Positions 52,737-56,925 of a stretch of 64,000 nucleotides of DNA are shown one piece after another. How positions within the stretch are numbered: the first letter of the stretch is position 1; the number at the start of each line of letters is the position of its first letter. A program made the translations under genes and the position numbers. Source of the stretch: Jannaschia sp. GRR-S6-38 (GTDB lineage: Bacteria > Pseudomonadota > Alphaproteobacteria > Rhodobacterales > Rhodobacteraceae); NCBI RefSeq assembly GCF_029853695.1, contig NZ_CP122537.1, forward strand, positions 558,001 through 622,000, in the 5' to 3' direction. Under the pieces are notes generated by a model. The model made no database searches. It was not told the DNA's origin and saw only the letters and a program-made list of their open reading frames with translations.

Positions 52737-54671
52737 ATGGACGAACAGAACAGAAATCTCATCCTCGCCACCGCGCTTTCCGCGTTGGTCCTTCTGGTGT
52801 GGTTCCTGCTCTTCCCGCCCGAACAGCAAAGCCCCGACCTCGCGACGGGCGACACCTCTGACGGCATCGCCCAGCCCGCCCCGGGCGCGCTCACCCCGCC
52901 CGAAGGCGCCGCCATCCCCGGCGTGACCGCGGTGCCGGGCACGGTGGCGCCCGCTCCGGGCGAGACCCGCGCCGCCGCCGTCGCCGCCGCGCCGCGCGTG
53001 GCCGTCGAGACGCCGCGCCTGACGGGGTCGATCTCGCTGGCGGGCGGGCGCATCGACGACCTGTCGCTCAAGGATTACCGCGAGACGCTGGACGACGACT
53101 CGCCCATCGTCACGCTTCTGTCCCCTGCCGGCGCGCCCGGCGCCTATTATGCGCTGCACGGCTGGGTGCCCGCGGGCGACCTGCCCTTCGAGGCCGTGCC
53201 CGGCGCCTCGACCCAGTGGTCCGCCCCGGCGGGCGCAACGCTGACCCCCGAGACCCCACTCACGCTGACCTGGGACAACGGCGCGGGCCTTGTCTTCCGC
53301 CGCACCATCGCGATCGACGGCGACTACATGTTCACGGTCACCCAGGCCGTCGAGAACACCACCGGCGCGCCGGTCCGCCTCGCGCCCTACGGCCTCGTCG
53401 CCCGCCATGGCGAGCCCGACACGGTCAATTTCTTCATCCTGCACGAAGGCGTCGTCGCCCGCGCCGATGGCGAGCTGGCCGAGCTCGATTACGACGACGT
53501 GACCGAGCTCGATTTCGTCGCCGCCGAAGGCGGCCGCGTACGCATCACCGAGGGCACCCAGGACGGCTGGATCGGCTTCACCGACAAATACTGGATGACC
53601 ACGCTGGTCCCGCCCGCGGCCACGCCCTTCGCCGAGGTCGTCAAATATGTCGACAGCGCCGACATCTACCAGACCGAGACGCGGATGGCCGCCCTCGAGG
53701 TCGCCCCCGGCGCCACCGTCACCTCCGAGAGCCGCCTCTTCGCCGGCGCCAAGGAATGGGAGACGATCCGCGAGTACCAGAACGAGGGCGGCATCGCCGG
53801 CTTCATCGACAGCATCGACTGGGGCTGGTTCTATTTCCTGACCAAGCCGATCTTCCAGGGGCTGCACTGGTTCAACGGCCTGATCGGCAACATGGGCATC
53901 GCGATCATCGTGCTGACGCTCTGCATCAAGGCGATCCTCTTCCCGCTGGCCTACAAGTCCTACGTCTCGATGGCCCGCATGAAGGAGCTTCAGCCCGAGA
54001 TGGAGAAGCTCAAGGAGCGCGCCGGCGACGACCGCCAGAAGCTCCAGCAGGGGATGATGGAGCTCTACAAGACCAACAAGGTGAACCCCGCCGCGGGCTG
54101 CCTGCCGATCCTCTTGCAGATCCCGATCTTCTTCAGCCTCTACAAGGTGATCTTCGTCACCATCGAGCTGCGCCACGCGCCCTTCTTCGGCCCTTTCCAG
54201 GACCTGTCGGCGCCCGACCCGACCTCGATCATGAACCTGTTCGGGCTCTTGCCCTACGGCGCGCCCGAGCCGGGCTCGATCCTCGCGCTCGTCTTCATCG
54301 GCATCCTGCCGATCCTGCTCGGCATCTCGATGTGGCTGCAGCAGAAGCTCAACCCCGCGCCGACCGACCCCACCCAGGCGATGATCTTCGCCTGGCTGCC
54401 CTGGGTCTTCATGTTCATGCTGGGCAGCTTCGCCAGCGGGTTGGTGGTCTACTGGATCGCCAACAACACGATCACCTTCATCCAGCAATACACCATCATG
54501 CGCAGCCACGGCTCCAAGCCCGACCTGTTCGGCAACATCCGGTCCAGCTTCCAGAAGAAGCCCGCGACCGAGCCGGGCGTCGGCCCGAACAAGGGCCCGG
54601 TCAAGGCCGCCCCCGCGACGAAGACGCCGGGGAACAAGGGCGGCGCGCCGAAGGGCAAGGACAAGCCGTGA
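52737..54671 (+). CDS. yidC: Membrane protein insertase YidC
   Basis: YidC inserts and folds inner-membrane proteins alone or with SecYEG. The 644-residue protein has an N-terminal membrane anchor (LILATALSALVLLVWFLLF), a Pro/Ala-rich linker, the large periplasmic domain (about 90-360), and the C-terminal five-helix insertase core (about 370-600) with IIVLTLCIKAILFPLAYKSY and NPAAGCLPILLQIPIFFSLY. The basic tail ends KGGAPKGKDKP. Its stop overlaps the MOSC gene start as GTGA. Confidence 0.96.
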   Translation: MDEQNRNLILATALSALVLLVWFLLFPPEQQSPDLATGDTSDGIAQPAPGALTPPEGAAIPGVTAVPGTVAPAPGETRAAAVAAAPRVAVETPRLTGSISLAGGRIDDLSLKDYRETLDDDSPIVTLLSPAGAPGAYYALHGWVPAGDLPFEAVPGASTQWSAPAGATLTPETPLTLTWDNGAGLVFRRTIAIDGDYMFTVTQAVENTTGAPVRLAPYGLVARHGEPDTVNFFILHEGVVARADGELAELDYDDVTELDFVAAEGGRVRITEGTQDGWIGFTDKYWMTTLVPPAATPFAEVVKYVDSADIYQTETRMAALEVAPGATVTSESRLFAGAKEWETIREYQNEGGIAGFIDSIDWGWFYFLTKPIFQGLHWFNGLIGNMGIAIIVLTLCIKAILFPLAYKSYVSMARMKELQPEMEKLKERAGDDRQKLQQGMMELYKTNKVNPAAGCLPILLQIPIFFSLYKVIFVTIELRHAPFFGPFQDLSAPDPTSIMNLFGLLPYGAPEPGSILALVFIGILPILLGISMWLQQKLNPAPTDPTQAMIFAWLPWVFMFMLGSFASGLVVYWIANNTITFIQQYTIMRSHGSKPDLFGNIRSSFQKKPATEPGVGPNKGPVKAAPATKTPGNKGGAPKGKDKP

Positions 54672-55402
54672 CCGCGCGCCTCGCCTCGATCTGGCGGCAT
54701 CCCGTCAAGGCGATCGGGCGCGAGGGGTTGCAGCGGACCCGGCTCCGGGCGGGGCGCGGGCTGCCCCATGACCGCCGCTGGGCGGTGACCCATGCCCGCG
54801 CGAAGCCGATCGACGGCTGGGCGCAGAAGGCCAATTTCCTGCGCGGCGTCTCCGGGCCGGAGCTGATGGCCGTCACCGCCGCGCTCGACCCCGAGGCCGG
54901 GCGCGTCACGCTGCGCCACCCGCGCTGCCCCGACCTGACCGTGGCCCCCGCAGCCGAGGCGCAGGCGCTCTGCGACTGGCTCGCGCCGCTCTGGCCGGGC
55001 GACCTGCCCCGCCCCGCGGCGGTGGTCGAATGCGCCACCGGCTTCACCGACATCCCCGAGTCCTGGGTCTCGATCCAGAACGCCGCCTCGCATCGCGCGG
55101 TCGCGCAGCGGCTGGGCGGCGAGCTGTCGATCCATCGCTGGCGCGGCAATCTCTGGGTCGAGGGCTGGCCGCTCTGGCACGAATTCGACCTGGTCGGCCG
55201 CCGCATCCGCATCGGGGATTCCGTGTTGGAGATCCGCGAGCCGATCACCCGCTGCAAGGCCACCATGGCCAATCCCGAGACCGGCCGCCGCGACGCCGAC
55301 ACGCTGGCCGCCCTGCGCAGTTGGGATCACCAGGATTTCGGCGTCTACGCCGCCGTGATCGAAGGCGGCGAGATCGCCCCGGGCGCCGAGGTCGCGGCGT
55401 GA
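54668..55402 (+). CDS. MOSC domain-containing protein
   Basis: A 244-residue MOSC-domain protein, the fold that binds sulfur-bearing molybdenum cofactor (MoCo sulfurase C-terminus, YiiM, mARC). It begins VTARLASIWRHPVKAIGREGL, the usual MOSC-N beta-barrel start, and the likely Mo-ligand Cys is in EPITRCKATMANPETGRRD near 198-216. A GTG start couples it to yidC and its stop couples to engB the same way (GTGA), which makes yidC-MOSC-engB-argB one tight operon, typical for Rhodobacteraceae. Confidence 0.88.
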   Translation: MTARLASIWRHPVKAIGREGLQRTRLRAGRGLPHDRRWAVTHARAKPIDGWAQKANFLRGVSGPELMAVTAALDPEAGRVTLRHPRCPDLTVAPAAEAQALCDWLAPLWPGDLPRPAAVVECATGFTDIPESWVSIQNAASHRAVAQRLGGELSIHRWRGNLWVEGWPLWHEFDLVGRRIRIGDSVLEIREPITRCKATMANPETGRRDADTLAALRSWDHQDFGVYAAVIEGGEIAPGAEVAA

Positions 55403-56051
55403 CCGCCCTGCCCTTCCCCGAGGCCCCGGAGCCCGACGCGGATGCCGAGGAGGCGGGCCGCCGGCTCTTCGCGGGCGGCGCCGAGTTCCTCAAGGGCGTC
55501 GTCGCCATGTCGGGCCTGCCCCCCCCGACCGCCCCGAGGTCTGCTTCGCCGGGCGCTCCAACGTGGGCAAGTCGACGCTGATCAACGCGCTGACTGGGCG
55601 CCGGGCGCTGGCCCGCGCCTCCAACACCCCCGGCCGCACGCAGGAGGTGAACTTCTTCACCCTGGGCGAGAGCCACTACCTCGTGGACCTGCCGGGCTAC
55701 GGCTTCGCCAAGGCCCCGCTGGCCGAGGTCGCCAAGTGGCAGGCGCTGATGAAGCAGTATCTCTCGGGCCGCGCCAATCTGCGCCGCGCCTTCGTGCTGA
55801 TCGACGCCCGCCACGGCGCCAAGGCGGTCGACGAGGAGGTGATGAGCCTGCTCGACGCCTCCGCCGTCACCTTCCAGGCGGTGCTGACCAAGGCCGACAA
55901 AGTGAAGGAGGCCGAACGCGCGGCCGCGCTCGACCGCACCCGCGCCGTGCTGGCCCGCCACCCGGCCGCCTTCCCCGAGCTGATCGTCACGTCCAGCGAG
56001 AAGGGCTGGGGCATTCCGACCCTGCGTGCCACCATCGCCGCGATGGACTGA
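55399..56051 (+). pseudogene. engB: Ribosome biogenesis GTPase EngB (YihA/YsxC), frameshifted in a C8 run
   Basis: EngB is a GTPase needed for 50S subunit assembly. The N-terminal part (GTG at 55399, through EFLKGVVAMSGLPPP) reads in one frame; the rest, from the Walker A region SNVGKSTLINAL through DLPGYGFAKAP (G3) and TKADK (G4) to 56051, reads in another. The break lies in eight Cs at 55519-55526; one more C would give the expected ...GLPPPDRPEVCFAGRSNVGKST. All later motifs are intact, so a sequencing deletion, a recent mutation, or slippage are options. I treat it as broken as read. Confidence 0.85.
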
Positions 56052-56055
56052 GACC

Positions 56056-56925
56056 ATGAAGAAACAGGACGCCATGACCCGCGACAACGCCGCCATCGCC
56101 CGCACCCTGAACGAGGCGCTGCCCTACCTGACGCGCTACGACGACGCGATCGTCGTCATCAAGCTGGGCGGCCACGCCATGGGCTCGGACGAGGGGATGG
56201 CCAGCTTCGCGCGCGACGTGGTGCTGATGCGCACCGTCGGGATCAACCCGGTGATCGTCCATGGCGGCGGCCCGATGATCAACCAGCTGCTCGAACGGCT
56301 GGGCGTCAAATCCGATTTCGTGCGCGGCAAGCGCGTCACCGATGCCGAGACGATGCGCGTGGTCGAGATGGTGCTGGCCGGCGAGGTCAACAAGCGCATC
56401 GTCCAGGCGATCAACACCGCCGGCGGCCGCGCCGTTGGGCTGACCGGCAAGGATGCCGACATGATCACCTGCGCGCAGGACGACCCCGAACTGGGCTTCG
56501 TCGGCACGCCCACCGAGGTCGATCCCCGCCTGCTCAACAGCCTCTTCCGCGACGAGATGATCCCCGTCATCGCGCCCATCGGCACGGGCGAGAACGACGA
56601 GACCTTCAACATCAACGGCGACACCGCGGCGGGCGCGATCGCGGCCGCGCTCCGGGCCGACCGGCTTCTGCTGCTGACCGACGTGGCGGGGGTCAAGGAC
56701 GGCACGGGCGAGGTCGTGACCCAGCTGACGGCGGCGCAGGTCCGGGCGATGACGGCGGACGGCACGATCGCGGGCGGCATGATCCCCAAGACCGAGACCG
56801 CGCTCGCCGCGCTCGAAGGCGGGGTGCGCGCCGTGGTCATCCTCGACGGCCGCGTGCCCAACGCCGTGCTGCTCGAGCTCTTCACCTCGCACGGCGCGGG
56901 CAGCCTGATCCGGCTCGACGCCTGA
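56056..56925 (+). CDS. argB: Acetylglutamate kinase
   Basis: ArgB phosphorylates N-acetyl-L-glutamate, the second and usually feedback-controlled step of arginine synthesis. The 289-residue protein has [12 protein letters not shown] near 29-40, [18 protein letters not shown] near 69-86, [15 protein letters not shown] near 186-200 and the C-terminal [19 protein letters not shown]. An alternative ATG six codons later (56074) follows AGGA; both are possible, and the extra residues start MKKQDA. It starts four bases after the engB stop. Confidence 0.95.

Follow-up and report, generated by a model that had tools for sequence, protein, structure and literature searches.

A one-base frame break at a run of eight Cs in engB of Jannaschia sp. 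GRR-S6-38, probably a homopolymer-length error in the assembly

The stretch of DNA analyzed here (the window, 64,000 nucleotides) covers positions 558001-622000 of the single 3,320,675-base contig of Jannaschia sp. GRR-S6-38, a genome that is 99.81% complete and whose closest named relatives are mostly Jannaschia species. It carries the gene order yidC, a MOSC-domain gene, engB, and argB, in which the two frames of engB, read from GTG 55399 to TGA 56051, meet at a run of eight Cs. The MOSC-domain gene matches no NCBIfam family, and takes its domain name from a precomputed Pfam accession and from the names of its relatives. The features of the locus are:

54668..55402, forward strand: MOSC-domain gene, intact, upstream of engB and overlapping it by 4 bases
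55399..55581, forward strand: 5' piece of engB, with a GTG start, 43 native-looking residues (those from the C run included), 17 foreign residues, and TGA at 55579-55581
55519..55526, forward strand: run of eight Cs, the point of frame change in engB
55527..56051, forward strand: 3' piece of engB, which bears the GTPase motifs and reads DRPEVCFAGRSNVGKS... in the other frame as far as TGA at 56049-56051
55563..55565, forward strand: GTG inside the P-loop (NVGKS), the earliest ATG, GTG, or TTG that the 3' frame offers
56056..56925, forward strand: argB (acetylglutamate kinase, TIGR00761), intact, downstream of engB

The frame that starts at GTG 55399 runs for 60 codons before its stop at 55579-55581; its native-looking part translates as VTALPFPEAPEPDADAEEAGRRLFAGGAEFLKGVVAMSGLPPP (43 residues, ending ...VVAMSGLPPP, with the last prolines contributed by the C run), and the last 20 native codons align with relatives. 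The frame of the 3' piece lies one base back from the 5' frame and is open as far as 55359. The C run is the sole run of at least eight of any base within the 64-kb window. The break in frame is not due to chance, and a codon-usage HMM agrees, independently setting a same-strand frame change at 55517; the one-base frameshift that the original prediction placed at this run is thereby confirmed. Its further statement that the G motifs past the break are intact is borne out by the 3' piece, which scores 206.9 bits against NCBIfam TIGR03598 (cut-off 124.45) over profile positions 18-185 of 186, while the 60-aa 5' piece alone matches no NCBIfam or Pfam family. The locus thus resembles that of the 50S-assembly GTPase EngB/YihA/YsxC (TIGR03598) in that the 3' piece stands well over the equivalog cut-off and the neighboring genes are intact, but it differs in that its frame is split by one base, with no complete one-frame product; as regards membership in EngB/YsxC, the model cut-off is passed and a single complete frame with a start codon is lacking. 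Internal restart was considered and rejected, as the 3' frame has no ATG, GTG, TTG, CTG, or ATH codon upstream of GTG 55563, and a product begun at that GTG would be without the first residues of motif G1. With no usable start before GTG 55563, whole EngB could be made only through a frame change at or near the C run.

A second engB elsewhere in the genome, one of the possibilities raised in the original prediction, was looked for and none was found within the 3.32-Mb contig: a TIGR03598 search gave seven matches, of which only the one at the engB locus lies above the cut-off. The six below it, set aside as engB copies, stand in open frames of 494, 309, and 432 aa among others, lengths that we take to fit Der, Era, and MnmE. 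When the 3' piece served as the query in the same genome, two weak matches (E 6.7e-7 and 1.5e-5) accompanied that at the engB locus, three in all.

Comparison with relatives had also been proposed. The 3' piece finds a match in all 60 genomes searched (its own included), the weakest best matches, in G054 (E 1.4e-9) and G057 (E 1.2e-4), not being clearly engB. We then compared 109 relative loci, drawn as 29 + 80 from two sets that probably share genomes, and representing 97 distinct contexts. In every one of the 109 (29 of them read by eye) engB is unbroken with its KGVV-like motif in frame, and the distance from the Leu/Met codon to the Asp (once Asn) codon is nine bases, as against eight in the window. 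The three residues of this linker are PPA in 54/109 loci, and otherwise PEP, PPD, PDP, PAP, PPS, PPP, and more; no locus has nine Cs there, and the longest nearby C run is at most six in 108 of them. The one exception, engB of Sulfitobacter dubius, has eight Cs at the same linker, in frame. The stretch is thus a tolerant linker of engB, in which C runs are not conserved. The framing of the original prediction as eight versus nine Cs is not supported in the part that takes nine Cs as the intact allele: since the linker residues vary and nine Cs are seen nowhere, the C run is not necessarily longer in the intact allele, and a count of C8 against C9 is too narrow where it is the length of the whole stretch that matters.

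A search of 5.8 billion proteins found no second strain of the species. Among the best 120 of 7994 matches listed for engB (8000 candidates scored), the top relative has 88% identity, and the neighboring MOSC protein occurs there on a single contig of 3,320,675 bases, its next relatives being 71-72% identical. No engB product of the genome itself is among those best 120 of 7994 matches listed, and the source annotation therefore probably calls none.

Substitution rates were estimated between the 3' piece and the 19 other genomes of the genus. Mean Ka is 0.121 and mean Ka/Ks 0.164, compared to the relatives' own means of 0.097-0.182 and 0.082-0.234, respectively; the Ka/Ks value is the fifth highest of 20 and within the range. 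Relaxed constraint past the break, as in a pseudogene, was not found in this comparison, in which a very recent break would look alike. To judge from these rates, the 3' half of engB shows no clear decay. Either the break is very recent, or the living cell does not have it, or it is bypassed.

To place the break in the context of the rest of the assembly, the codon-usage HMM was applied to the window and 40 further stretches, 864 kb in all (26% of the genome). It set 314 same-strand frame changes. Eighteen of them were flagged because they did not conform to the rule for ordinary gene junctions, and on visual inspection about six of those 18 are breaks within genes, engB included, two of them at G/C runs of at least seven. 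The other breaks, with a sixth gene from outside the 26% sample, are:

genome 2125938-2125944 (L168:10938-10944), reverse strand: APP1_cat protein split at a run of seven Gs, with profile positions 3-51 and 52-154 in successive frames
L135 near 3559, reverse strand: Hint_2 protein with a probable break at a run of five Gs, profile positions 2-35 and 33-146
L143 near 17875, reverse strand: AAA_33 protein with a probable break at a run of four Gs, AAA_33 in the second piece, the first piece matching no family
L152 near 1581, reverse strand: DEAD-box protein, tentative break within the gene
L171 near 15900, forward strand: DUF4147/MOFRL protein with a probable break, DUF4147 and MOFRL lying in different frames
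genome 2712224-2712231 (L130:1501-1508): CsgG-like lipoprotein gene with a frame change at a run of eight Gs, outside the 26% sample

The break in the CsgG-like gene runs the opposite way to that in engB, by +1 or -2 bases. This gene has matches in 3/20 genus genomes (its own included), and in one relative (L154) a single frame continues across the equivalent position, although the match there has a TAG elsewhere. The broken genes other than engB look dispensable, as real pseudogenes would, and in genes of that kind a frame break may be either genuine or an error.

Most long runs within genes are nonetheless in frame. The sample has 27 G/C runs of at least seven: 11 within genes keep the frame, 2 coincide with a frame change, 9 lie at an edge, and 5 are non-coding, so that 2/13 coding runs change frame and 11/13 do not. 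The whole genome has nine distinct G/C runs of at least eight, which the HMM places as four in frame, two at a frame change, two non-coding, and one at an edge. Two runs of eight Gs or Cs are in frame in genes that presumably are pheT and accB. Exact runs of eight Cs or Gs number 5 in the 3.3 Mb of this genome, the fewest of 20 genus genomes searched (others 14-90); its C8/C7 ratio, 0.054, is the lowest of the 20 (others 0.081-0.204), and its C7/C6 ratio, 0.115, is the second lowest. The C8 deficit has a P of 0.009, a figure that ignores variation among genomes, and counts of nine-C runs (2 here against 1-19 in the other 19 genomes) are too low to be informative. The deficit fits under-called long runs and is kept as weak support for an assembly error, although a low C8 count may also be a trait of the species. 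As proof of error it was rejected, because most coding runs are in frame and species may differ. Of 30 C8 loci retrieved for comparison, 2 belong to this genome; the 28 from relatives comprise 10 in frame, 11 non-coding, 3 at an edge, 1 between opposite strands, and 3 with a frame change. Two of these last three (L180 and L189) have the look of true breaks, the third that of a gene junction. Breaks at C8 runs (2/5 here versus 2/12 coding runs in relatives; Fisher p 0.54) are thus not special to this assembly, and since two relatives also show apparent breaks at runs of eight Gs, the other long-run breaks cannot set error apart from mutation.

Homopolymer length errors are the commonest residual error of long-read-only bacterial assemblies, and we infer that long reads were used here. 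According to PMC8812927, the errors left in long-read-only assemblies are mostly homopolymer indels, and PMC12007338 likewise bears on how frequently errors of this type persist in assemblies from long reads; the present case is like those described there in the one-base change of a C run in a conserved gene and in the further frame breaks of the same assembly, but differs in that most long runs within genes are in frame. EngB/YsxC is, according to an excerpt of PMC2811118, essential by demonstration in S. aureus and by report in five other bacteria, and a role in B. subtilis is described in part of PMC12560758. Literature searches found no essential-gene screen naming yihA together with Rhodobacter, and, by title, no paper on the genus that would cover a complete Jannaschia genome. 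The original prediction had offered three competing readings (error, recent mutation, and slippage) without choosing among them; these were the right ones, and we favor the first, a homopolymer-length error in the assembly, as the best and a likely explanation of the split. The organism would carry an intact engB and the public sequence would be one base short at the C run, a single residual error of this kind being enough to split engB exactly as observed. Error is probable because the gene is whole in all relatives examined, there is no spare copy, and the 3' half is apparently still under selection; a break in a single-copy gene demonstrated or reported to be essential in six bacteria is much more likely an error than a mutation, since a real null should hardly survive. 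Several observations speak against it: with 11/13 coding runs in frame the assembly is not grossly bad; the opposite direction of the CsgG-like break means that not all breaks are plain under-calling by one; apparent breaks at eight-G runs occur also in two relatives; and the other broken genes look dispensable. Most likely, then, the cell has the base and it is only the record that lacks it: the observation is correct, and probably no biology lies behind the split.

C and G runs are slippery for DNA polymerase, and a real, recent loss of one base in the sequenced culture, with a clone or a part of the culture without EngB surviving through suppressors, slow growth, or a mixed population, is conceivable, if unlikely. 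It would accord with the other breaks at runs of seven and eight Gs in this genome and at eight-G runs in two relatives, and the lack of clear decay is what a very recent event would leave; repeat length correlates with indel frequency in PMC3812077, and a suis case in PMC4014445 makes such loss possible, though rare. Against it, the gene is single-copy, kept in all relatives examined, and reported as essential elsewhere (PMC2811118, in excerpt), and polarity would be expected, because after the early stop some 470 bases ahead of argB would go untranslated. Somewhat more doubtful is a real and fixed eight-base allele in which slippage at the C run would yield sufficient full-length EngB, either -1 ribosomal slippage with proline tRNA or addition of one base by RNA polymerase. 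Rescue by slippage is as such an established phenomenon (PMC3812077; PMC3017870), the absence of clear decay in the 3' piece is consistent with it, and a laboratory drift experiment measured how frameshifts are bypassed in 3-8-base repeats, those of G and C among them (PMC3812077). The site, by contrast, is not conserved, with eight Cs in only 1/109 relative loci and there in frame; the RNA immediately downstream is no more stably folded than shuffled sequences (z -0.69); and the natural cases cited are A/T tracts. Slippage of proline tRNA on CCC-C is known mainly as +1, whereas the engB site needs -1.

The frameshifted genes of Blochmannia that are thought to be rescued by slippage (PMC3017870, as excerpted) share with engB a conserved information-processing role, a single homopolymer indel, and no clear decay elsewhere; they differ in that the tract here is eight Cs and not A/T, in a GC-rich 3.3-Mb genome and not a reduced endosymbiont. 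That a GC-rich alphaproteobacterium with a genome of normal size has a real and fixed eight-C allele and lives on EngB made only by C-run slippage, the supply of an essential factor of ribosome assembly being set by recoding efficiency, has a slim chance of being correct. A programmed frameshift or phase-variable switch controlling engB is very improbable: the homopolymer does sit in the 5' part of the gene, the usual phase-variable anatomy, but the split is private to this genome, engB is a housekeeping GTPase, and neither a conserved slippery site (0/109 relative loci frameshifted) nor a stimulator in the form of unusual downstream structure (z -0.69) was found.

If the assembly is in error, as we favor, the record gives the strain a false lack of a core gene for ribosome assembly, which would then be tallied in surveys of pseudogenes or of gene loss; a real allele would instead offer a natural test of EngB loss or of supply by slippage outside reduced genomes. 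In the two relatives with apparent true breaks, L180 and L189, the gene is apparently broken at an eight-G run at the center of the locus, and we take the two genes to be LacI-like and metallo-hydrolase-like, respectively.
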